Assembly: GCF_900119915.1 (NCBI RefSeq)
Contig: NZ_LT635455.1
Location: forward strand, 1,922,001 to 1,986,000
Length of the DNA stretch: 64,000 nucleotides
Reading direction: 5' to 3'
Source of the DNA: Olsenella timonensis
Lineage (GTDB): Bacteria; Actinomycetota; Coriobacteriia; Coriobacteriales; Atopobiaceae
Every line of letters begins with the position of its first letter. Position 1 is the first letter of the stretch. A program made the position numbers and the translations under genes. Of the stretch, positions 3,681-39,632 are shown piece after piece. The notes below the pieces were generated by a model. The model was not told the origin of the DNA. It ran no database searches and saw only the letters and a list, made by a program, of their open reading frames with translations.

Positions 3681-3722
3681 GCAGGGGCGCGCCGGGTCAC
3701 CGCCGCGCGCCGGGTCACGGCT

Positions 3723-3800
3723 CGCTCGTGAATTCACGAGCGCCCCGTTTTGCCCCCAAAGCCGACAAGAACCCCCGCTCGTGAATTCACGTGCGGCATC
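3723..3800. repeat. Double-palindrome element, GTGAATTCAC family (copy 1)
   Basis: Two copies of the palindrome CGCTCGTGAATTCACGAGCG (3723-3742) and its variant (3776-3795) are separated by ~33 nt. The spacer contains GTTTTG, CCCCCAAAGCC and GACAAGAACCC. The same spacer words occur in the copy at 5033-5108, on the other side of the intervening gene, in the same orientation. There is no U-run after either arm, so this is not a standard terminator. It lies 33 nt beyond the stop of the AbiEi/DUF559-like gene. Confidence 0.85.
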
Positions 3801-3833
3801 TTGCCGCCGCCGGCACCCGCTGCCGCGCCGCGC

Positions 3834-4922
3834 TCACAGCCCGTAGGCCTCCACGGGCACGACGTTCCACCCGTCGTCGACGCCGTCCGTGACGCCAGCC
3901 TCGTCCGCGGCGTTTCTCGCCCGCTCGCGCGCCCGGCCGTCCCAGCGCACGCCGTCGATGAGCTCAAGCTCCTCATAGAGCTGCTGCCGCAGCGCCCTCC
4001 CGCGCTCGGCCTCCCCCGGCTCGAGCATCTCCGGCGGAAGACCAAGCTCCCCGCGAATCCGCGCCACGAGGCCATCCATGTAGGTCAGGTCCTTGTACTG
4101 CCGCCTGGCCACGATGAACTCAACAAAGCCCATGGCCACGAGCTCGTTGTGGCGCTCGATGTCGCGCGCGTGCTGCGGCTCCTCCTCGTGGTCCCGCCCG
4201 TCGTACTCCACGGCGACGCCCCTTCCGCGCCGGCCGCGGGCGCGCAGCAGAATGTCGGGCTTGCGCACGCCCACGCTCATGGCGTCGCGGATGCGACGCA
4301 CCTCGACGGGGTCGTTCATCGAGAGGACCTTGAGGCCCCACCCGCCCATCCTCGGCGGGAGGCCCAGCCGCAGCGAGAGCTTGGTCTCGCGCGGAGATGC
4401 CGAACTCACGCACGCCTTGCCCAGGGCCCGCCTCACCATCCCCGCCCCGCGCACGGGTCCGAGTCTGGCGAGAAACGCGCGGATCCTGTCTGGCGTCGTC
4501 AGCGGCTCACGCCGCCGCCACATCCCCTTCTCGTGCTGCGGGGCAATCGCGTATGTTCCGAGCAGCTCAGACAGCAGGCAGATCAGCTCGAGCTCGGTGA
4601 GCGCTGGGGCCATGAGGACGGGCAGCAGCTCGGGCGATGCCGCGCGCACGCCCGGCATGAGCTCAACCACCGAGCCGGCGGGCAGCTCTGCCGACATGAC
4701 GTGTGTGCGCACGAGGTCGTTGTTGATCCGCGCCGACGCTGCGGAAACGAGCAGCTCGACGGGCCCGGCAAGGCTGGCGAGCAGCCGGCTGCGCGCCAGC
4801 AGTGCCTCCATCTCCGAGCGCGTTGAAGCACGGCACGGAACGACGGCCTCGGCGTCTCGCCACTGCACGTCCGGCCGACGGAACACCTCGAGCGCGCTGG
4901 TATGTGTCAAGAGCAAATCCAT
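3834..4922 (-). CDS. AbiEi/DUF559-like protein with PD-(D/E)XK nuclease fold (paralogue A)
   Basis: A 362-residue protein of no known specific role. The middle (HVMSAELPAGSVVEL, AASPELLPVLMA) resembles the regulatory module of actinobacterial AbiEi-type proteins. The C-terminal half carries PD-(D/E)XK-like residues: Glu in SPRETKLSLRLGLP, Asp in KPDILL, and VEYDGRDH followed by RHNELVAMG, as in DUF559/Vsr-like endonucleases. It is a full-length paralogue of the 20907-21875 product (same SPxE, PP..GG.G, EYD..xH and MG landmarks). No ribosome site precedes the ATG. A TAATGT hexamer ends 6 nt before it, so the mRNA may be leaderless. Direct copies of a palindromic repeat flank the gene on both sides. 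Nuclease activity and DNA target are inference. Confidence 0.8.
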   Translation of the reverse strand: MDLLLTHTSALEVFRRPDVQWRDAEAVVPCRASTRSEMEALLARSRLLASLAGPVELLVSAASARINNDLVRTHVMSAELPAGSVVELMPGVRAASPELLPVLMAPALTELELICLLSELLGTYAIAPQHEKGMWRRREPLTTPDRIRAFLARLGPVRGAGMVRRALGKACVSSASPRETKLSLRLGLPPRMGGWGLKVLSMNDPVEVRRIRDAMSVGVRKPDILLRARGRRGRGVAVEYDGRDHEEEPQHARDIERHNELVAMGFVEFIVARRQYKDLTYMDGLVARIRGELGLPPEMLEPGEAERGRALRQQLYEELELIDGVRWDGRARERARNAADEAGVTDGVDDGWNVVPVEAYGL

Positions 4923-4925
4923 GTA

Positions 4926-4962
4926 GTAACATTACACTATTTAGTGCCTCACTTAATGTTAC
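4926..4962. promoter_or_regulatory. Nested inverted repeat over the start of the AbiEi-like gene; probable operator/promoter
   Basis: Outer arms GTAACATTA (4926-4934) and TAATGTTAC (4954-4962) are exact inverses. An inner pair CACTA/TAGTG lies at 4935-4946. The sequence is strongly AT-rich, unlike its surroundings. The left arm on the minus strand contains TAATGT, spaced as a -10 for a transcript starting at the ATG. Binding here would block that transcript, so autoregulation is plausible. Confidence 0.6.
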
Positions 4963-5032
4963 AATCTAATAGTTTTTTGATTCACACTTATCGAGCGGTT
5001 TATCGTCCGCGCGCCGACCCACGCCGCCCCCC

Positions 5033-5108
5033 TCGCTCGTGAATTCATATGCGACAGTTTTTGGCCTCAAAGCCGACAAGAACCCACGCTCGTGAATTCA
5101 TATGCGGC
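5033..5108. repeat. Double-palindrome element, GTGAATTCAC family (copy 2)
   Basis: Arms CTCGTGAATTCATATGCG at 5036-5053 and again from 5089 share GTGAATTCA with copy 1. The spacer (GTTTTTGGCCTCAAAGCC, then GACAAGAACCC) matches the spacer of 3723-3800 closely. The two copies are in direct orientation about 1.3 kb apart and bracket a single gene. Confidence 0.85.
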
Positions 5109-5158
5109 ACTCCTCCGACGCCGCATGCGCCGTCGGCACCCACTCCGCCGCGTCCCAA

Positions 5159-5195
5159 TGCGACAGTGTCGTTTTCCTGTCGCGACACTGTCGCA
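5159..5195. repeat. CGACANTGTCG paired palindrome (copy 1)
   Basis: Arms CGACAGTGTCG (5161-5171) and CGACACTGTCG (5183-5193) are each palindromes and also pair with each other across TTTTCCTGTCG. Arm starts are exactly 22 nt apart in all four copies in the window. Confidence 0.85.
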
Positions 5196-5240
5196 AGCCG
5201 GAGACGCCGGGACGGCACGAGGCCTGCCTTGACCTCACTC

Positions 5241-5281
5241 CTCACTTCTTGACCTCACATTGTGAGGTCAAGAAGTGAGGT
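5241..5281. repeat. Perfect 41-nt palindrome of the TTAACCTCAC family
   Basis: Arms CCTCACTTCTTGACCTCACA (5241-5260) and its exact inverse (5262-5281) surround one T. The core CCTCACTTCTT recurs at 5339-5394 and 7168-7213. There is no U-run on either side. Confidence 0.85.
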
Positions 5282-5338
5282 TAACAGAGGTAGTCAATCA
5301 AGCCGTTTACCTGCGAAAACGAACCGAGCCACGCTATG

Positions 5339-5394
5339 TTAACCTCACTTTCTAACGTCAGTTTCGCAAAGTGAGGTTAAGAAGTGAGGTTAAC
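5339..5394. repeat. TTAACCTCACTTT hairpin with an extra third arm
   Basis: TTAACCTCACTTT (5339-5351) pairs exactly with AAAGTGAGGTTAA (5368-5380) over a 16-nt loop. A further copy, GAAGTGAGGTTAAC, follows at 5381-5394. The third arm would allow two alternative pairings. Confidence 0.8.
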
Positions 5395-5426
5395 GGGTCC
5401 GGCACCTGTCCCTCCCACCCTCAAAA

Positions 5427-5461
5427 CGACAGTGTCGTTTTCCTGTCGCGACATTGTCGCA
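5427..5461. repeat. CGACANTGTCG paired palindrome (copy 2), at the 3' end of the AlbA_2 gene
   Basis: Arms lie at 5427-5437 and 5449-5459 with the invariant GTTTTCCTGTCG spacer. The element ends 3 nt from the stop codon of the AlbA_2 gene (5464). A sister copy sits just before that gene's start. Confidence 0.85.
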
Positions 5462-5463
5462 AG

Positions 5464-6831
5464 CTACAGGGGCTTATAGCGGTGCGGCCAACCATCGCAC
5501 GCAACGACAAGACGTCTGTCGAGCATCTGTCTGATGTATCGCTGAGCGGTTCTCCTTGTCACATTCAGATATTCTGCAAGCTCCGCGGCGGTTATGCCGC
5601 CATCTCGGTCGGCCAATATCGTAATCGCCTCGTATGCCCCCTCGACTCCCCTTGCTGCGGAAATCGGAGTGGTAGGAACAGAAGCTCGGAAAATATCTCC
5701 GTCCTCAAGGACAGCGGGTTTCCCGCCGTATGCTTGAGAGTACTTCTGAAGGTTCCTCATCCCGCTACCCAACTCCTCGGCATAGCCGATCTGAGAAAAC
5801 ACTCCAGCTATGTTGGGATTCTTCGACACGGGATTGAAGTCAGAAAGCGTCAGTCTACCTTCGTAAATCGAGCGACTCGCGTTCTCGGTACGCAGCTCTC
5901 CACGTTCGATAACCAGCTTTGCAGGGAAGGGGCTGATATACTCGCGATGTATCAAAAGATTTGACACGAGCTCTCTCACGATGATGTCGCGTGCGCTGAC
6001 CCGTTGTCCCGCTTCGACCACAAACCTATCCGGAAGAGCCGACTCTGCAAAATCAACGAGCTTTGGGTAGGCTTCGATGAGATTGCAGCTCAGCGTAATC
6101 CTGTCGTCATAGCGATCGACATTCTCCTTGCGCACGATGGCGTCGGTCCTATAGGCCGGGCACACATCAGAGATTACCTCATCTGTGCCAAAGAGAAGAA
6201 CGGCCGCGAGCGTGTAGCCCTCATCTCCCGTTCTACGGTCCTTCGCAAACAGCTTTGCGCTCCGCAAAAGCTCCTCGTTGCTCATAGAGCCCCATGGGTG
6301 ACCGGGAACCCTCCTTGTTGCAAGGGCCCGCGCCCTTTCGAGCGTTTCCTCCTTAAAGTCCTCAAGGCTTACATAGCGAAATATCCTTCGCTCCGAATAT
6401 TCATTCTGCTTCCTCAAGTAGAGCTGAGAGATCTGTTCGACTCCGACGACCTTGACGTCAGCGTCCGCAATCCTGTCATAGGCAACGCCTTTGAAGGTGT
6501 ATACGGCGGGCCCCATGGGCACCCACACCCTAACAACATTGAGTCCGTTAACCTCAATTGCCTCGGTCTCAACCACGGGAGAGACATTGAATAGCTCAGG
6601 GTTGCTAACGGCGTTGACAACAGCGCGCTGAACAGCACGCAACGCATTCTGCGGAACACCAAGGATATCACCCTTGTCGGTTATCCCAAGAAAGACATTG
6701 CCTCCCTGCCGGTTTGCAAAAGCGCAAATCGTCTCATACACGTCCTGGCCGGGGGCTCCCCCGCAGCGCTTGAATTCGGTCATCAAGCCTTCGCCAAGAC
6801 TGATGCGAGCAGCCAAATCCCTAGCATCCAT
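5464..6831 (-). CDS. AlbA_2 (Schlafen-type) / HATPase_c_4 transcriptional regulator
   Basis: A 455-residue protein of the family annotated as putative DNA-binding or ATP-binding regulators. The N-terminal AlbA_2 domain spans ~10-130 (LMTEFKRCGG, ETICAFANRQGGNVFLGITD). The HATPase_c_4-type region is at ~270-375 (RELVSNLLIHREYISP, GSGMRNLQKY). A C-terminal winged-helix/HTH follows (ITAAELAEYLNVTRRTAQRY). The ATG at 6831 was chosen for the GGGGGCGG ribosome site 4 nt upstream; a longer frame from 6897 would translate through a repeat. CGACANTGTCG elements bracket it at its start and stop, and larger composite repeats do so further out. Base composition is lower in GC than the housekeeping genes, which suggests transfer. 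The target is unknown; autoregulation through the upstream palindromes is inference. Confidence 0.85.
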   Translation of the reverse strand: MDARDLAARISLGEGLMTEFKRCGGAPGQDVYETICAFANRQGGNVFLGITDKGDILGVPQNALRAVQRAVVNAVSNPELFNVSPVVETEAIEVNGLNVVRVWVPMGPAVYTFKGVAYDRIADADVKVVGVEQISQLYLRKQNEYSERRIFRYVSLEDFKEETLERARALATRRVPGHPWGSMSNEELLRSAKLFAKDRRTGDEGYTLAAVLLFGTDEVISDVCPAYRTDAIVRKENVDRYDDRITLSCNLIEAYPKLVDFAESALPDRFVVEAGQRVSARDIIVRELVSNLLIHREYISPFPAKLVIERGELRTENASRSIYEGRLTLSDFNPVSKNPNIAGVFSQIGYAEELGSGMRNLQKYSQAYGGKPAVLEDGDIFRASVPTTPISAARGVEGAYEAITILADRDGGITAAELAEYLNVTRRTAQRYIRQMLDRRLVVACDGWPHRYKPL

Positions 6832-6843
6832 GTCCGCCCCCAA

Positions 6844-6880
6844 TGCGACAGTGTCGTTTTCCTGTCGCGACATTGTCGCG
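6844..6880. repeat. CGACANTGTCG paired palindrome (copy 3), in the AlbA_2 leader
   Basis: Arms CGACAGTGTCG (6846-6856) and CGACATTGTCG (6868-6878) sit 15 nt upstream of the AlbA_2 start codon. They could therefore act as an operator, or as an mRNA hairpin near the ribosome site. Confidence 0.85.
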
Positions 6881-7097
6881 TATGCCCAGTATGTCACCTT
6901 TCAAGCGCTTGGAAAAGCGAGCGTCCGACGTGCTCTGAGGATGATCAAGGCATGGCGGTAAAGTTACCACCGTTAAGAGCAGACCACCTTTTGTAACCTT
7001 CTAGCTGGTCTTTGATGGTCATCAGAGGCATTCTACAAAAGGATGCGGGTCACACGTGCCTGACGAAACGACACGACCCTGTACTCGCGTACGACAG

Positions 7098-7134
7098 TGC
7101 GACAGTGTCGTTTTCCTGTCGCGACATTGTCACA
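7098..7134. repeat. CGACANTGTCG paired palindrome (copy 4)
   Basis: Arms lie at 7100-7110 and 7122-7132. The downstream flank (ACCGGAGACG, then CCGAGGCC and a TTAACCTCAC element) matches the flank of copy 1 at 5195-5240. Together they form ~115-nt composite repeats in direct orientation on either side of the AlbA_2 gene. Confidence 0.8.
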
Positions 7135-7167
7135 AACCGGAGACGTCCGGATGGGCCGAGGCCCGCC

Positions 7168-7213
7168 TTAACCTCACTTCTCGCTTCTTAGCCTCACAAT
7201 GTGAGGTTAACGG
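7168..7213. repeat. TTAACCTCAC hairpin (third copy) followed by a lone GTGAATTCAC palindrome
   Basis: TTAACCTCAC (7168-7177) and GTGAGGTTAA (7201-7210) are inverse arms with an inner GCCTCAC. A single GCGTGAATTCACGTGC palindrome follows at 7239-7254. The interval 6832-7349 otherwise shows no convincing gene. Confidence 0.75.
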
Positions 7214-7349
7214 GAGCCGATCTAACGCTCCGCTATATGCGTGAATTCACGTGCAGAAGAAAGTGAAGGAACTGCTTCGACTCATTTGAGCTCGAGCAAA
7301 GCCCCCCCTACATCACTTCACACGATACCTTTATATACAGGAGGAACTC

Positions 7350-9168: not shown

Positions 9169-12100
9169 TTAGGCGTTGTCGCGGTCGTTGCCGAGGACCT
9201 TGTCCTCATAGCCGAGCAGGCTGGACGTGAACTTGCGGCGACGCACGCCCACGCCGACGAAGTACACGGCGCTGAGGATCATGCCGAGCAGGATGAGCCA
9301 GTGGACCCAGCAGTCCTCGTCCTTGGCGCCAGCCGCGAGCGGCGTATCGTCGTCACCGATGGTGTCGGTGGGCGCGGCAAGGGCGTTCTCGTCGTCGGCG
9401 ATGGTCTCCTCGGGCGCGGCCTCATCGGTCGTCGTGTCGTCAGCCGGGGTCACGGTCGCGGGCGTACCAGGGGTCGGAGTGCCGTCCCCACCGCCGCCAG
9501 GCGTCGGGGTCGGGGTGTCGCCGCCACCAGGCGTCACAGGAGTCGCGACGATGGTGAAGGTGCCCTCGTTCACAACCAGGATGTAGTTCTGGGCAAGGAA
9601 GTTGCCGGCGGGGTTGTCCGCGAGCTGGAGGCTACCCTTGGAGATGGTGTAAGTGCCCACCGCCTCGCCGGGCTCACGCGTGAGCGCGCCGGTCCAGCCG
9701 GCAGTCTCGCCACGGAGATAGCCGCTGTAATCGGAGGTGAGCGTCGGGTCGGCCTGGCCCTGGGTCTTGCGGATGTCACGCGGCGTGACCGTGATGGTCA
9801 GAGGCGTGATCTGGTAGTAACGCTCGACGGAGCCGGTGTAGTTGCCCTTGCCGGTGATGGTGACCTTGATGGTACCGGTGACGTTGGTGCGGTCGGAGGT
9901 GGAGTAAGTCACCTCGTAGTCCGTGCCAGCGACAAGAACCTTCTCGCCGTCGGTCACCGTGGGAGCCCAGGTCTGGTTGGTGCCGTTGTACGGGACGTCC
10001 TGCGGACTATTAACCGTAACCTCCGGACCGCTGATATCAATATGCGTCAGAGTCCAGGTGCCGGTGATCTCCTTGTCGCCGGTGACCTCGAAGTCGCCCG
10101 TGCTCCAGCCGGAGAAGGTCCAGGTGCCGTACTCGTTCTGGAAGGTGGCGCCCGCGGCGTAGGTCTTGTCGACCTCGAAGGTCTCGCCGGCCGTCACCTC
10201 GTAGGCGGCGCCGTCGTTGGGCAGCGTGGCCTTGTGCTCGACGCCCTCGCCGTCGGTCCAGGGGTTGGAGCCCTTGAGGCCGGACCAGCTGTACTTGACC
10301 GCGTAGGTGGCCTCGTCGCCCTCCTCGATCGTCCAGGTGCCGGTGATCTCCTTGTCGCCGGTGACCTCGAAGTCGCCCGTGCTCCAGCCGGAGAAGGTCC
10401 AGGTGCCGTACTCGTTCTGGAAGGTGGCGCCCGCGGCGTAGGTCTTGTCGACCTCGAAGGTCTCGCCGGCCGTCACCTCGTAGGCGGCGCCGTCGTTGGG
10501 CAGCGTGGCCTTGTGCTCGACGCCCTCGCCGTCGGTCCAGGGGTTGGAGCCCTTGAGGCCGGACCAGCTGTACTTGACCGCGTAGGTGGCCTCGTCGCCC
10601 TCCTCGATCGTCCAGGTGCCGGTGATCTCCTTGTCGCCGGTGACCTCGAAGTCGCCCGTGCTCCAGCCGGAGAAGGTCCAGGTGCCGTACTCGTTCTGGA
10701 AGGTGGCGCCCGCGGCGTAGGTCTTGTCGACCTCGAAGGTCTCGCCGGCCGTCACCTCGTAGGCGGCGCCGTCGTTGGGCAGCGTGGCCTTGTGCTCGAC
10801 GCCCTCGCCGTCGGTCCAGGGGTTGGAGCCCTTGAGGCCGGACCAGCTGTAGGAGACCTTGTAGGTCCGTGCTACCTGGACAACAATTGTGATGTCGCCA
10901 TTTACCGTTTGAGCCGGGTAGGCATATTCGGTTTTTCCTGCATTGTCGCCGGTCTGATCCTGGCCGTTGACGGTTATCTTCTCAATCTTATAGCCATCCG
11001 GGATGTCAAACGATATCGCTTCTGACTGCTCCCCCTGCTTCACGCTCTGCGTTGAGGGCGACACTATGGCACCTTCAACGGGTGCGCCTTCATTGTCCAC
11101 GATTGAGGCGGTAATATTATATTTGTTTACATACTTCGTATAAAACGTCAGGTCATCACCGATAAGGTTTATATCGCCCGACTCCAGGCGCTTCCCAGAC
11201 TCATCAACCCAGCACTCAAAATCCTCGAGCGAAGACGTATCGGGAATCTGATTCTCATATACCGTTCCCATGTCCTCGACGACATAGGACGCCATCACAT
11301 CACCAGTAGCAGTATCAATGAAGCGCACGTTGTGATAAACGCCCGCACGATAAATAACACCGTCGACGTGATAACCGTCGTCTTGGTTCTTAGCAACGTA
11401 CCAACGAACGGCCTGCGCCTCATCCAGAGAGATATTGAGAATGCTCGCTATCTGCGTGGGGCTGGGGGCCGAGACGATGAGCTCTGAGATGTTGTTGCTT
11501 TTATCCTCAGTGCCGTTGGGATAGACGTTGTTTTGAGATCCAGAGTCAAACAGCTCGCTGTTGATGCTGCCGGTACCGACCGAGTAATAGCTCCCCGCGT
11601 TACCGAAGGCAGCATTGTCCGCCTTAAGCACGAAAAACTGGGCGTAGGTAGCGTTATTGTCAAACCAAGGGCGTACCTCAATGATTATTTGGTTATGTCC
11701 ATACGCGCGATACTCTGACGTCGTGATCGTCTCATTGAACGCATAGTACTCACCGTCATGCTGCCATCCGCGCAGGTTCGGGGAGTCAGATTCAATCGTG
11801 TCCTGGTTGTTGCCCAAGACAAACGTGTAGGTAGCCTGACCGTTCCTCCAGCTTCGGAATGCTGTGGTTTGCTTATCTACGCAGCTGTTTCCGGATTGAT
11901 TCTTGTAATACCGAACCGTTACGGTGGTCTGGTTGCCGATCTCAATCTTGTTGCCCCATACGGCGTAGAGGGTCAGGTTGGATTCCATCGTTACTTCGGC
12001 GCCGGGATCATACGCGGAATCCGGCTCCGTCGCGTTGGGGTCCGTGCTCCACCCAAGAAACTCGTAGTTTGCGAGCGTCATATCCCCGGCAATTGTTGCT

Positions 12101-13539
12101 CTACTTCCCGGCTCATAGGTATAAACCGCATTTGTCTCGACAGCGTCCTCGAGCTTTATGTTTCCGGCGTTGCCATTTTCGTAGACGATCTTCTTGGCAT
12201 CGCTGGGGTAGTTCGAGTTGTAGACCAGCCTATACGTCGCCGGCGATACGACATATATTGTAGCGGTGTCACTCGCGCTACCGTTTCTCGCCGTAATCGT
12301 GGCCACGCCGGTCTGATGGGTCGTCACAAGGCCGTTCTGATCAACCGTCGCCACGCGCTCGTCAGAAGACGACCAGGTGACGCTCGAGCCCGCAGGTGTA
12401 GCGGTCGCAGTCAGCTGGCCTTCATCGCCAAGGGTGATCTGGAGGGATTCTTCGGTGATGTCAACGGTAGGAGCAGGCGTTACCTGAACCGTGAAATACT
12501 CTTCCTCCCAGTTCCAAGCTGCAGTTGCCTTGTATTCGTGCTTCAGAGTTACAGTACCCTCAGAGACGCCCGTAACTCTAACGGTTTGGCCATCAATATT
12601 GGCCAGCCTTACCTGACCGTCTCCGGAATCTACACTCCATTTATGCTGTGGAATCCACCCATCGGTGGAGCCATTTATCGAAATGGTCCCCCCAACTTCA
12701 ACCGTAAAGTCCACTGCTCGAGCGGCCATCGTCGAGGTGCCGTTGTTCGCGGCAGGGGTCTCGCTCTCGGAGGCGTCCTCGGTGGTCGCTGCTTCGTCCT
12801 CGGTCGGCTCGGTAGCCTCCTCGGGCTCGACGGGGGTCGCGTCCTCGGCGGGCTCCTCCGTCGGGGCGGCCTCGGTCGTGACGACGATCTTCTCGCCGTC
12901 GGTCAGGTCGGCGGCGGCGATGGTGTACTCGCCGCTTTCGTTGGCGGCGAGCTCCGCGCCGGCGTAGGCGACGGAGGAAACCTTCTGACCGTCGTCAGGG
13001 GCAACCGTAAACGTGAAGTCGAGGGTGTTGGAAACGTCAACGGACTTGGGATCCGTCTCGGACGTGACGCTCTTCTCGGTGCCGTCCTGTGCTCTGTACT
13101 TCAGCGTCGCGGCGGAGACCTCAACGTTGAGGGTGACGGTGGTGTCGGTCTCCTCTGCGGGCGCCTGCTCGGACTGGGCCTGATCGGACTGACCGTCCGG
13201 AGTCGTCGCCTCGGTGTCCTGTGCCGTGGTCTCGACGGGGTTCTCCTCCGTCTCGGCCACCGTCTGCTCGGCATCGTCCTGTGAGGACGCCTGCTCGTCG
13301 GTGGTGTCGGTCTCCTCCGGGGTCGTCACCTCCCCCTGGGTGCCCGTGTCCTCGGCGGCCGGGTCCATGACGACCTCGTCGCGGCCCTCGGACCCGCCGG
13401 AGGCCAGGACGTCGGCGAACGCCTGGATGTTGGACGACTGCATCACGAGGACGACGCTGAGGAAGACCGCCAGTATGGTCTTCCACCTCTTCTTCGCCTC
13501 TTGACGCCTGAGGTGCTTGCCCTCATGCCTCTCGTTCAT
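9169..13539 (-). CDS. Giant membrane-anchored surface adhesin with BIG2, SHIRT-like repeats and MBG domain
   Basis: About 1456 residues. A long positive N-terminus and hydrophobic signal (TILAVFLSVVLVMQSSN, cleavage near IQAFA) are followed by an acidic Thr/Glu stalk to ~275. Next come a BIG2 Ig-like domain ~360-433 (TWSSSDERVATVDQNG), an InlB/Listeria-Bacteroides-type repeat ~437-530 (YEFLGWSTDPN), a central unassigned region, three SHIRT-like domains ~890-1163 (GTWTFSGWSTGDFEV), an MBG-type domain ~1170-1325 and a Pro/Thr/Gly linker. It ends in one membrane helix and a basic tail (VGVGVRRRKF) with no LPXTG. The ATG at 13539 has GAGGGAG upstream. The middle of the gene (about 10.86-12.7 kb) is visibly AT-richer than both ends, suggesting mosaic assembly. 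Role: surface adhesion, inferred. Confidence 0.9.
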   Translation of the reverse strand: MNERHEGKHLRRQEAKKRWKTILAVFLSVVLVMQSSNIQAFADVLASGGSEGRDEVVMDPAAEDTGTQGEVTTPEETDTTDEQASSQDDAEQTVAETEENPVETTAQDTEATTPDGQSDQAQSEQAPAEETDTTVTLNVEVSAATLKYRAQDGTEKSVTSETDPKSVDVSNTLDFTFTVAPDDGQKVSSVAYAGAELAANESGEYTIAAADLTDGEKIVVTTEAAPTEEPAEDATPVEPEEATEPTEDEAATTEDASESETPAANNGTSTMAARAVDFTVEVGGTISINGSTDGWIPQHKWSVDSGDGQVRLANIDGQTVRVTGVSEGTVTLKHEYKATAAWNWEEEYFTVQVTPAPTVDITEESLQITLGDEGQLTATATPAGSSVTWSSSDERVATVDQNGLVTTHQTGVATITARNGSASDTATIYVVSPATYRLVYNSNYPSDAKKIVYENGNAGNIKLEDAVETNAVYTYEPGSRATIAGDMTLANYEFLGWSTDPNATEPDSAYDPGAEVTMESNLTLYAVWGNKIEIGNQTTVTVRYYKNQSGNSCVDKQTTAFRSWRNGQATYTFVLGNNQDTIESDSPNLRGWQHDGEYYAFNETITTSEYRAYGHNQIIIEVRPWFDNNATYAQFFVLKADNAAFGNAGSYYSVGTGSINSELFDSGSQNNVYPNGTEDKSNNISELIVSAPSPTQIASILNISLDEAQAVRWYVAKNQDDGYHVDGVIYRAGVYHNVRFIDTATGDVMASYVVEDMGTVYENQIPDTSSLEDFECWVDESGKRLESGDINLIGDDLTFYTKYVNKYNITASIVDNEGAPVEGAIVSPSTQSVKQGEQSEAISFDIPDGYKIEKITVNGQDQTGDNAGKTEYAYPAQTVNGDITIVVQVARTYKVSYSWSGLKGSNPWTDGEGVEHKATLPNDGAAYEVTAGETFEVDKTYAAGATFQNEYGTWTFSGWSTGDFEVTGDKEITGTWTIEEGDEATYAVKYSWSGLKGSNPWTDGEGVEHKATLPNDGAAYEVTAGETFEVDKTYAAGATFQNEYGTWTFSGWSTGDFEVTGDKEITGTWTIEEGDEATYAVKYSWSGLKGSNPWTDGEGVEHKATLPNDGAAYEVTAGETFEVDKTYAAGATFQNEYGTWTFSGWSTGDFEVTGDKEITGTWTLTHIDISGPEVTVNSPQDVPYNGTNQTWAPTVTDGEKVLVAGTDYEVTYSTSDRTNVTGTIKVTITGKGNYTGSVERYYQITPLTITVTPRDIRKTQGQADPTLTSDYSGYLRGETAGWTGALTREPGEAVGTYTISKGSLQLADNPAGNFLAQNYILVVNEGTFTIVATPVTPGGGDTPTPTPGGGGDGTPTPGTPATVTPADDTTTDEAAPEETIADDENALAAPTDTIGDDDTPLAAGAKDEDCWVHWLILLGMILSAVYFVGVGVRRRKFTSSLLGYEDKVLGNDRDNA
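10052..10851 (-). repeat. Three identical 279-bp tandem repeats inside the adhesin
   Basis: Units begin at 10052, 10331 and 10610, exactly 279 bp (93 codons) apart. The third is truncated at 10851, where identity stops abruptly. I saw no base differences among units. Such identity indicates recent expansion or gene conversion and predicts copy-number variation between strains. Confidence 0.92.
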
Positions 13540-14273
13540 ACGAACCACTCCCTCAACGTCTTGGGCACCACCTGACGCTGTCCGCTTACATTCAGCTGAC
13601 TTGCAGACACTTGACAGATGTCTCCCTCTGACTATTCCAACGCAATGTAACACAGATTAGGGGGAGGGGTGACATCTTTTCTTACGTGGCTGGTATTAAA
13701 TTGTGCAGCCTAGGGTATGTATCTATTTTAATATTTAATGTGCTTATCGGTTGACACTTTTCTTCAATAGATGATTTACCTGCGCTTTATTTGACTTTCA
13801 AATCCCTGAAGGTGGGGTTGAGAGTTCACGTATTTTTTGTGTACCTCTTTGTTGACTATTTCGGCATACGGCGACTTCTGCTCGGCGAGGAAATAGTGGG
13901 GAGGGGGGTCTATCGTTACCGGGCCCGTGATCGAGGGCTCTCCGACAGAGAACGGGGCTTCGGGCACGCGACGTCGCTCGCCCGCAAGAAGCGCCACCCG
14001 CCGAATGGTCCTATAAGATTGCCTCGCTTCTAGAGCGAGCAGCAGTGACTTCGCCGGACCTCGCGCCTCTGCGGACGTCCTCCTGCAGGCGCATGAAGGC
14101 CGACATGGTGTCGCAGAGGCGATGCTGGGCGACATTAAGGTTGCCTCGGCAGATTACCTGGGAGCTGCGCTCGGGCGCATACCCCTGAACGCCGGCGTCC
14201 TCTTTGTGGGCAACCAGCCTACGGCGAGGATGTCCCGTGGCCGCGCGCATCGAGGGTGGCTGCGCGGCGAAGT

Positions 14274-14347
14274 GCCGCTCGTGAATTCACGAGCGGCAGG
14301 ATTATGGCGAAAACGCCGCTTGAGGCGGCGCTCGTGAATTCACGGGC
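14274..14347. repeat. Double-palindrome element, GTGAATTCAC family (copy 3)
   Basis: The left arm is a perfect 24-nt palindrome (14274-14297, GCCGCTCGTGAA and its inverse). The right arm GCGCTCGTGAATTCACGGGC spans 14328-14347. The spacer has its own small hairpin, GGCGAAAACGCC. Confidence 0.85.
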
Positions 14348-14463
14348 AACAGCGGGCGGGCGGCAACGGGCGGACAGCAGCGGGCGGGCGGCAGCGGCTG
14401 CGAACAGGGAGCAGCGGGCCGCGCCGGGGTTCTTCTCGCCCGAGCGGGCTCGTCTGTGTCTAA

Positions 14464-20703: not shown

Positions 20704-20906
20704 TGCAGTTCCTTTCCTGGTGTCGTGCGGGCCCGGGGTGGCCGCCTCGACTGAGGTCATTGTGATATCAGATTGGTTTCTGTGCAAATGGAGAATCCGT
20801 CGAGACGGCGGCGAACGGCGCCATGCGCCGGGCGAGCGCGCATGTGGCAGCTAGCGGTAAGTTACGCCTCGTAAGATGTGGGGCTCTTCGATTGGGGAGG
20901 TGCCTC

Positions 20907-21875
20907 ATGGGACTGAGCGTCGGGTTCGACTCTTCACTTCGCTACTGGCTCACCAAGACCGCGGACGAAGCGCTCCCAGAACCTGCCGGCAGTGCCGCCA
21001 TCGCACGAGCGACCGCCGGACTTCGGGAGGCGCGGGCGGAGTCGCTGCCGTTCGAGCCGGACGAACGACGGCCGCTGCACCTGCTTGTTCCCGACCGTCG
21101 GCTGGGACACAGAATGGACGGCGCCGTAGCCCACGTGATAAGCCGCCCGCTGCCAGAGGGCTCCCTCTGCCATCTCTCGGGAGACAACACGATAGCCTCG
21201 CCCGAGCTCACCTATGCGCAGATGGCCACGTCCGAGCCCTTCCTCGAAACCGTGCGCATCGGGTGCTATCTCTGCTCCGCCTTCTCCATCGGCGACGACG
21301 GTCGTGACTACGTCGGTGAGCGGGGGCAGCTCACCACGGTAGAGGCTCTTCGTGACTATGTTGACCGCCTCCCGCCGGGAACCCGAGGCGTGCGACGGGC
21401 TCGCGAGGCGCTCGCGTATGTCATCGACGGCCTGGCGTCGCCGATGGAGGTCTTCCTCGGAATGGGGTACGGGATGCCGCCGAACCTGGGAGGGATGGGG
21501 CCCTTTGTCATGCACGCCAACCAGAGGATCGAGATCGACGAGCAGATACAGGAGCTCCTCGGCTCCCGCTTTCTCAAGGGCGATCTCTACCTGCCCGAGT
21601 TCGGCACCGACCTCGAATACGACAGCCGCAGGTTCCATACAGGCCAATATCGTCTTGACCACACGCAGGCACGAAGAAACGCAATCGAGGCCATGGGGAT
21701 CAAGACCATATCGGCGACCTATGGCCAGATAGACACCTTCGCGAAGTTCAAGAACTTCACCTGGATGCTTCGGAAGAGGCTTGGACTCGACCAGCCAGAA
21801 TACTCGCCCGAGGAGCGACAGGCACAGATGGCGCTCTACGACACCCTTCTTTCTCCCACAAGCCGCCTGTTTTGA
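20907..21875 (+). CDS. AbiEi/DUF559-like protein with PD-(D/E)XK nuclease fold (paralogue B)
   Basis: 322 residues, full-length paralogue of the 3834-4922 product. Shared landmarks: HVISRPLPEGSLCHL with a following IASPELTYAQMA; LTTVEALRDYVDRL; and the nuclease half SPMEVFLGMGYGMPPNLGG, KGDLYLP, LEYDSRRFH and RRNAIEAMG. The putative catalytic set is Glu (SPME), Asp (KGD) and Glu-x-Asp (LEYD). The ATG at 20907 has GGGGAGG upstream, unlike paralogue A. No partner toxin (AbiEii) is next to it. A four-armed palindromic repeat begins 10 nt after its stop codon. The activity and any link to the repeats are inference. Confidence 0.8.
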   Translation: MGLSVGFDSSLRYWLTKTADEALPEPAGSAAIARATAGLREARAESLPFEPDERRPLHLLVPDRRLGHRMDGAVAHVISRPLPEGSLCHLSGDNTIASPELTYAQMATSEPFLETVRIGCYLCSAFSIGDDGRDYVGERGQLTTVEALRDYVDRLPPGTRGVRRAREALAYVIDGLASPMEVFLGMGYGMPPNLGGMGPFVMHANQRIEIDEQIQELLGSRFLKGDLYLPEFGTDLEYDSRRFHTGQYRLDHTQARRNAIEAMGIKTISATYGQIDTFAKFKNFTWMLRKRLGLDQPEYSPEERQAQMALYDTLLSPTSRLF

Positions 21876-39551: not shown

Positions 39552-39632
39552 GGCCGCTCGTGAATTCACGAGCGCACGCGCGCCCCGACTTTTGACGCGT
39601 AGGGGGCCGCACGTGAATTCACGAGCGACCCC
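39552..39632. repeat. Double-palindrome element, GTGAATTCAC family (copy 4)
   Basis: CCGCTCGTGAATTCACGAGC (39554-39573) and GCACGTGAATTCACGAGC (39609-39626) are separated by ~35 nt including CCCCGACTTTTGACG. Outer GGGGCC/GGGGG and CCCCC tracts add pairing. It occupies most of the intergenic gap between purD and the NUDIX gene. Confidence 0.85.

Follow-up and report, generated by a model that had tools for sequence, protein, structure and literature searches.

The window analysed here, a stretch of 64,000 nucleotides, contains a gene, gene A, that lies between two direct copies of a repeat, element E. The original prediction had described a single gene enclosed by two copies of an element in the same orientation, with arms and spacer words common to both. 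A repeat search of the window confirmed this layout, placing copies of 92 nucleotides each at 3721-3812 and 5032-5123 (80% identical, 1311 bp apart), with gene A as the only gene between them. Both copies contain the spacer words AAAGCCGACAAGAACCC, which the rest of the window lacks even with up to three mismatches allowed. The features of the window are:

3834..4922, minus strand: gene A, 362 amino acids
3723..3795, plus strand: E copy 1, 3' of gene A; palindromes at 3723-3742 and 3776-3795, 33-bp spacer with core GCCGACAAGAACCC
5034..5106, plus strand: E copy 2, 5' of gene A; palindromes at 5034-5053 and 5087-5106, whose right arms have decayed to CATATGCG
5155-5290, 5338-5464, 6843-6878 and 7090-7213: segments of a composite repeat around an AlbA_2/HTH gene
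7241..7250, strand not given: half element, a lone palindrome core GTGAATTCAC, adjoining repeat Y
14276..14348, plus strand: dispersed E copy that separates a surface-protein gene from its neighbour
20823..21875, plus strand: paralogue B, a distant member of the gene A family (class-wide search match G000:C1:1943060-1943836, E 2e-30)
39555..39627, plus strand: dispersed E copy, with a NUDIX-like gene on one side and purD on the other

Each E copy consists of two near-perfect 20-bp palindromes, CGCTCGTGAATTCACGAGCG, with few variant positions and with starts 53 bp apart. The window contains 16 matches to the pattern GTGAATTCA, where 0.05 would be expected, and 0 of 100 shuffles reach that number; across the whole genome (G000, 2.18 Mb) the pattern is found 22 times forward and 20 times reverse, compared to 0 and 0 for the reversed control pattern. 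In all, 23 palindromes are spread over 12 E loci, seven of these loci outside the window; 11 loci hold two or three palindromes, with three in tandem at 754,441, and one holds the lone palindrome at 7241. At the locus at 639,673 one palindrome of the pair is changed by a base (GTGAATGCAC). Intervals between unchanged palindromes within E loci (n=11) are 53 bp in nine cases and 52 bp in two. The loci at 2,124,749 and 2,132,536, about 7.8 kb apart, are copies of each other in a perfect inverted duplication that spans 4,158 bp or more, with one E in each half, so the independent number of loci is lower by one. Folded as single-stranded DNA, E copy 1 forms a REPIN-like hairpin (z -7.2), and the hairpin of E copy 2 is weaker (z -2.0). 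No GTAG or CGTC tag was found within 8 nt of the palindromes at any of the 11 E loci checked in this genome, and an Rfam scan of the window and eight loci returned tRNAs only. The repeat-spacer look of E suggested a CRISPR-like array, but most spacers are mutually related and not foreign, and E occurs as doublets, with one triplet.

We then searched 31 genomes of the genus, which we infer to be Thermophilibacter. G004 has 10 places with pairs of palindromes that match a strict E pattern and G000 has 9; G014, G016 and G030 have 2 each, G003 has 1 and the other 25 of 31 genomes have none. G004 and G000 are also the genomes that carry gene A or an orthologue more than 70% identical (74% in G004), and the best gene A relatives in G014, G016, G030 and G003 are 51-60% identical; E copy number accordingly accompanies the presence of gene A. 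The dispersed copy at 14276..14348 has a counterpart at the same place in G004 and is reduced to a single palindrome in G014. On its left, window positions 9169-13653 encode a large repeat-rich surface protein and an adjoining small membrane protein, a two-gene block that appears twice at a G004 locus (L028), with E adjoining each time. Viral contigs contained no relative of the gene A protein, no E array and no array of the related word CTCGTCTCAG, which argues against a phage origin for gene A and E.

The gene A protein was modelled with AlphaFold2 from 21 sequences (mean pLDDT 85, pTM 0.85) and divides into an AbiEi-like part, residues 1-171, and a Vsr/I-Bth0305I-like nuclease part, residues 176-295. 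In this model the C-terminal domain comes closest, among solved folds, to the catalytic domain of I-Bth0305I (Z 10.0 and rmsd 3.0 over 96 residues), and the N-terminal part aligns with the AbiEi antitoxin 6y8q of Streptococcus agalactiae (Z 7.5, rmsd 3.5, 118 residues), a Z within the score range described as common. Foldseek alone gave no match to the model at E 0.001 or better, and a viral structure library gave weak DUF559-type and other nuclease matches only (best E 0.002). Pfam matches of gene A are weak, to MTES_1575 (E 0.007), a Vsr-fold nuclease in the account given in PMC3710099, and to DUF559. When 20 relatives were scanned with it, weak matches to MTES_1575, DUF559, DUF2726 and DUF3509 were the only ones, and the Y1 (HUH) transposase domain PF01797 was absent from these scans. 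PADLOC models assigned gene A to 0 families at E up to 1 and gave, on the 21 members, a single match to JetA at E 0.014; NCBIfam offered no useful match for the family. E179, D223 and H245 do not vary in either of two alignments of 21 members each, and D254 is invariant or nearly so. These are presumed nuclease residues, a candidate counterpart of the conserved E, D, H and D in the catalytic domain of EDxHD homing endonucleases.

The gene A family has 7 to 18 matches in each of the 31 genomes, and a class-wide search at E 1e-15 found matches in 64 of 149 genomes and 27 of 78 genera; record titles in a name-bearing scan include Thermophilibacter, Olsenella, Atopobium and Atopobiaceae. We assessed bracketing by comparing 900 bp on each side of a gene for direct or inverted repeats, calling a gene bracketed if the score reached 40 and exceeded that of the best of 20 shuffles by 6 or more, a threshold set after 12 loci had been viewed. 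A repeat across the gene was found at 57 of 72 family loci, which are a score-chosen subset of the matches from the 31 genomes and include orthologues, so that they do not count as independent cases. Most gene A relatives share its layout, with repeats other than E; the flanking repeats are direct for gene A, its G004 counterpart and others, and inverted or mirrored elsewhere. Bracketing was seen for only 1 of 31 ordinary window genes, namely the neighbouring AlbA_2 gene (57/72 versus 1/31, Fisher p=1e-13), and for 7 of 28 AlbA_2 relatives (57/72 versus 7/28, p=1e-6), although these p-values are optimistic since the loci are related by descent. These controls rule out chance bracketing. RAYT genes are known to be bracketed by REPs, as described in PMC2817692, and those of the genus therefore served as a positive control: 9 of 12 were bracketed, by other repeats of their own in inverted orientation (for example CAAAAGGGGACAG...CCCCTTTTG). 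Against a strict pairing of nuclease and repeat, 15 of the 72 family loci showed no bracketing, family loci in other genera were bracketed in only 7 of 23 cases, and the AlbA_2 relatives make clear that bracketing is not unique to the nuclease family. Paralogue B, a candidate for a second bracketed gene in the window, failed the same flank test, with no repeats found across the gene.

The flanking repeats differ between small clades of the family, each of which has its own word. GTGAATTCAC is found in G000 and G004, and other clades have ACTTGGCAG, CCTATGGCA, GTGGCAG, CTGTGGCAC, CCGTTGGAG/CCTAAGCGC, CTCGTCTCAG, GACAAGG, GACCCAAA and further words, all hand-picked from the top shared 9-mers, as were the search words ACTTGGCAG, CCTATGGCA and CTCGTCTCAG. 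A second core, GGCGAGAAGAACC, accompanies the words in the flanks, with GGCGAGAA in 53 of 72 loci and GAAGAACC enriched 10-fold over a background that itself contains some array-bearing loci. A dominant period was found at 51 of the 72 family loci, at 40-42 bp in 23, 30-32 bp in 8, 62 bp in 4 and 53 bp in 3; at about 10.5 bp per helical turn, these periods correspond to 4, 3, 6 and 5 turns, respectively. For 28 control genes the same script gave 11 dominant periods; five of these were 53 bp, which we attribute to E in the flanks of those genes. Period is clustered on the protein tree, requiring 10 changes compared to a shuffled mean of 17.7, with a value as low in 0 of 200 shuffles; in this test the 53-bp label at two loci (L044 and L060) is due to other tandem repeats and not to E.

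The words are also restricted in their distribution among the 31 genomes. Hairpins of ACTTGGCAG lie at 11 places in four genomes (G003, G014, G025 and G030; none in the other 27) and flank a family gene on both sides in G003 and G030. Hairpins of CCTATGGCA lie at 15 places in four genomes (none in 27) and flank the gene on both sides in G020, G024 and G027. Pairs of CTCGTCTCAG number 76 in G024, 34 in G027, 32 in G020, 3 in G028 and 2 in G016, with none in 26 of 31. The correspondence is not one gene per repeat, however: G014 has ACTTGGCAG hairpins and no cognate gene among the matches listed, and the same is true of CTCGTCTCAG arrays in G020 and G027, genomes that are 76% and 87% complete. 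The original prediction had not seen that E is a dispersed REP-like family and that gene and repeat look like a cognate pair.

To this distribution can be added loci at which repeat and gene come apart. At the gene A locus of G014 the order is kinase, one E and repeat Y, with the gene absent; the sequence is 95% identical to the G000 locus over 1100 bp around the kinase and E, and the solo E joins the left flank of the left G000 copy to the right flank of the right copy. This is the kind of empty site that the original prediction had anticipated in a sister strain. The more distant G004 has the order kinase, E, gene, E, and its E copies are alike over 101 bp, a stretch longer than E itself. 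Because G004 has its 74% orthologue beside the same kinase, with E on both sides, the gene-less state of G014 is probably more simply explained by loss through recombination between the E copies than by recent insertion. The movable cassette or target-duplicating insertion originally proposed is partly supported: the gene-less single-E allele agrees with it, but the G004 orthologue favours loss in G014 over a recent gain. Transposition with defined ends or with a duplicated target was not observed at these loci, which counts against the REP/RAYT-like reading set out below.

A second, independent solo-array case, with another repeat, is found upstream of tRNA-Leu(gag). Here G024 has a paralogue between mirrored arrays, the first with five forward and four reverse words and the second with three forward and five reverse. 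G020, whose left flank is 93% identical, lacks the gene and carries a single array of two forward and three reverse words. G000, G003, G004, G014, G016, G025 and G028 have the same flanks with neither array nor gene, and G027 gave no match to the flank of this locus. The gap between the NUDIX-like gene and purD is similarly variable: one E in G000, G004, G014 and G016; 54 bp and no E in G028; E, an AAA-ATPase gene and E in G030; a related ATPase and no E in G025; and E beside two small genes in G003. Arrays can therefore occur without a gene, genes without an array, and E can bracket other genes. This gap is a hotspot at which the single genes differ from species to species, among them the AAA-ATPase, a putative HTH coiled-coil protein and a putative nucleotidyltransferase/HEPN-like pair.

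Other genes are bracketed elsewhere as well. E copies in G004 enclose further genes, which counts against exclusive pairing; those at L028 resemble an antitoxin/(p)ppGpp-synthetase pair. Arrays in G024 and G027 also bracket a small gene and another gene, the second of which we assume from its sequence to be SEL1-like. In the window, the composite repeat (GACAGTGTCG...CGACATTGTCG with CCTCACTTCTTAACCTCAC palindromes) brackets the AlbA_2/HTH gene at 5464-6897, and at the same locus in G014 (L032) another AlbA_2-like-looking gene lies between copies of its CCTCACTTC part.

With moderate confidence, we interpret this as a REP/RAYT-like system with another kind of nuclease as its enzyme, gene A being the cognate enzyme of the REP/REPIN-like E. 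The strongest rival, to which we give a minor though real share of credence, holds that the arrays are operators, at which an AbiEi-like repressor or silencer loops or coats DNA around its own and accessory genes, with the nuclease directed at foreign DNA only and dispersal left to ordinary recombination. AbiEi autoregulates, and the resemblance of residues 1-171 to that antitoxin, the helical phasing, the mirrored arrays on both sides and the arrays around other accessory genes are all consistent with such a role. Autoregulation, however, requires neither a downstream array nor 76 array pairs in one genome, and the invariance of the presumed nuclease residues also argues against it. We consider it rather improbable that the repeats are passive intergenic sequences, moved by an unknown agent, at which accessory genes collect by homologous recombination with the nuclease as the commonest passenger. 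Such a process could account for the E-bracketed ATPase gene of G030, for the different repeat around the AlbA_2 gene of the window and for the bracketed AlbA_2 relatives, but not readily for a word and period that follow the nuclease tree, for the excess of bracketing in the family over those relatives, or for an E copy number that accompanies the gene.

It is very unlikely that the locus records a one-off insertion of a cassette that duplicated its target, the target being E. The empty-site allele of G014 and the duplicated stretch in G004, which exceeds E, agree with such an event, but the same layout recurs with different repeats across most of the family, and the orthologue at the same site in G004 points to an old arrangement. 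We have rejected, as largely refuted and scarcely credible, the proposal that a RAYT (Y1 HUH) transposase moves E, which would then be an ordinary REP. Y1_Tnp genes are indeed present in 28 of 31 genomes, with two in G000, yet neither E nor the other nuclease words tested occur at any of 12 RAYT loci, most of which have repeats of their own, and G002, G005 and G014 have no Y1_Tnp match although E is present in G014 and bracketed nuclease genes in both G005 and G014.

The preferred reading, a REP/RAYT-like system served by a different nuclease, builds on the observed pairing of gene and repeat with its locus-specific words, tree-following periods, dispersal and solo arrays; binding, cutting and copying or mobilisation by the gene A protein are predicted functions. 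The protein probably binds its own palindromes as a multimer, perhaps a dimer or tetramer, on one face of the helix, with palindromes 5 turns apart for gene A and 3 or 4 turns apart for other paralogues. Nicking or cutting at arrays could then lead repair to copy them into new intergenic places. The arrays would also act as boundaries between which a single gene, nuclease or other accessory gene, is gained or lost via recombination between identical arrays, leaving either array-gene-array or a solo array. A more far-reaching form of this idea, which we put forward tentatively and think somewhat less likely true than false, is an HUH-independent REP system in which homing-endonuclease-like proteins each read their own phased array, spread it intergenically and home into solo arrays. 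Loci and strains would in this way exchange array-gene-array units, containing nuclease or other accessory genes, with no conventional transposase or integrase involved.

If the preferred reading is right, an unrelated nuclease fold appears to have joined a REP-type partnership many times within one genus. The pairs of paralogue and word would form a natural code-breaking set, relating protein sequence to DNA word and spacing, and whole-turn spacing that changes with protein clade makes a clear structural prediction. Loci with three states (no array, solo array and array-gene-array) make the spread of repeats and of single-gene cassettes directly testable. No description of such a nuclease-repeat pairing was found in the literature searched, which comprised open-licence papers.

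Several known systems share parts of this organisation. Residues 1-171 align with AbiEi of the AbiE type IV toxin-antitoxin systems, but gene A differs in having a fused nuclease domain and, as the lone gene inside the E pair, in lacking an AbiEii-like partner there. The C-terminal fold resembles that of the EDxHD homing endonucleases (Z 10.0), one of which, I-Bth0305I, is described in a review (PMC3943268) as forming a dimer on its target of nearly 60 bp, a length near the two-palindrome span of E. Unlike a homing endonuclease gene, however, gene A does not interrupt its presumed site, since a whole element lies on each side of it in G000 and G004, and presumed gene A sites are also found at many solo loci. 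The closest parallel in organisation is with REP elements, whose well-known partner enzymes are the RAYT transposases (PMC2817692). The likeness to RAYT, REP, BIME and REPIN systems, as described in PMC2817692 and PMC3116915, extends to a gene enclosed by palindromic repeats of its own, a scatter of those repeats over DNA outside genes, an apparent co-diversification of gene and repeat, several independent gene-repeat pairs per genome, and an element that is a palindrome doublet able to fold across its spacer. In contrast to those systems, the enzyme here is an AbiEi-plus-Vsr-like nuclease instead of a Y1 HUH transposase, the arrays are helically phased, E has no adjacent GTAG or CGTC tag, and the RAYT genes of the genus have other repeats. 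Because both the Y1 domain and the tag are absent, gene A and E do not belong to the RAYT/REP family, though they are organised like it and seem to behave like it.
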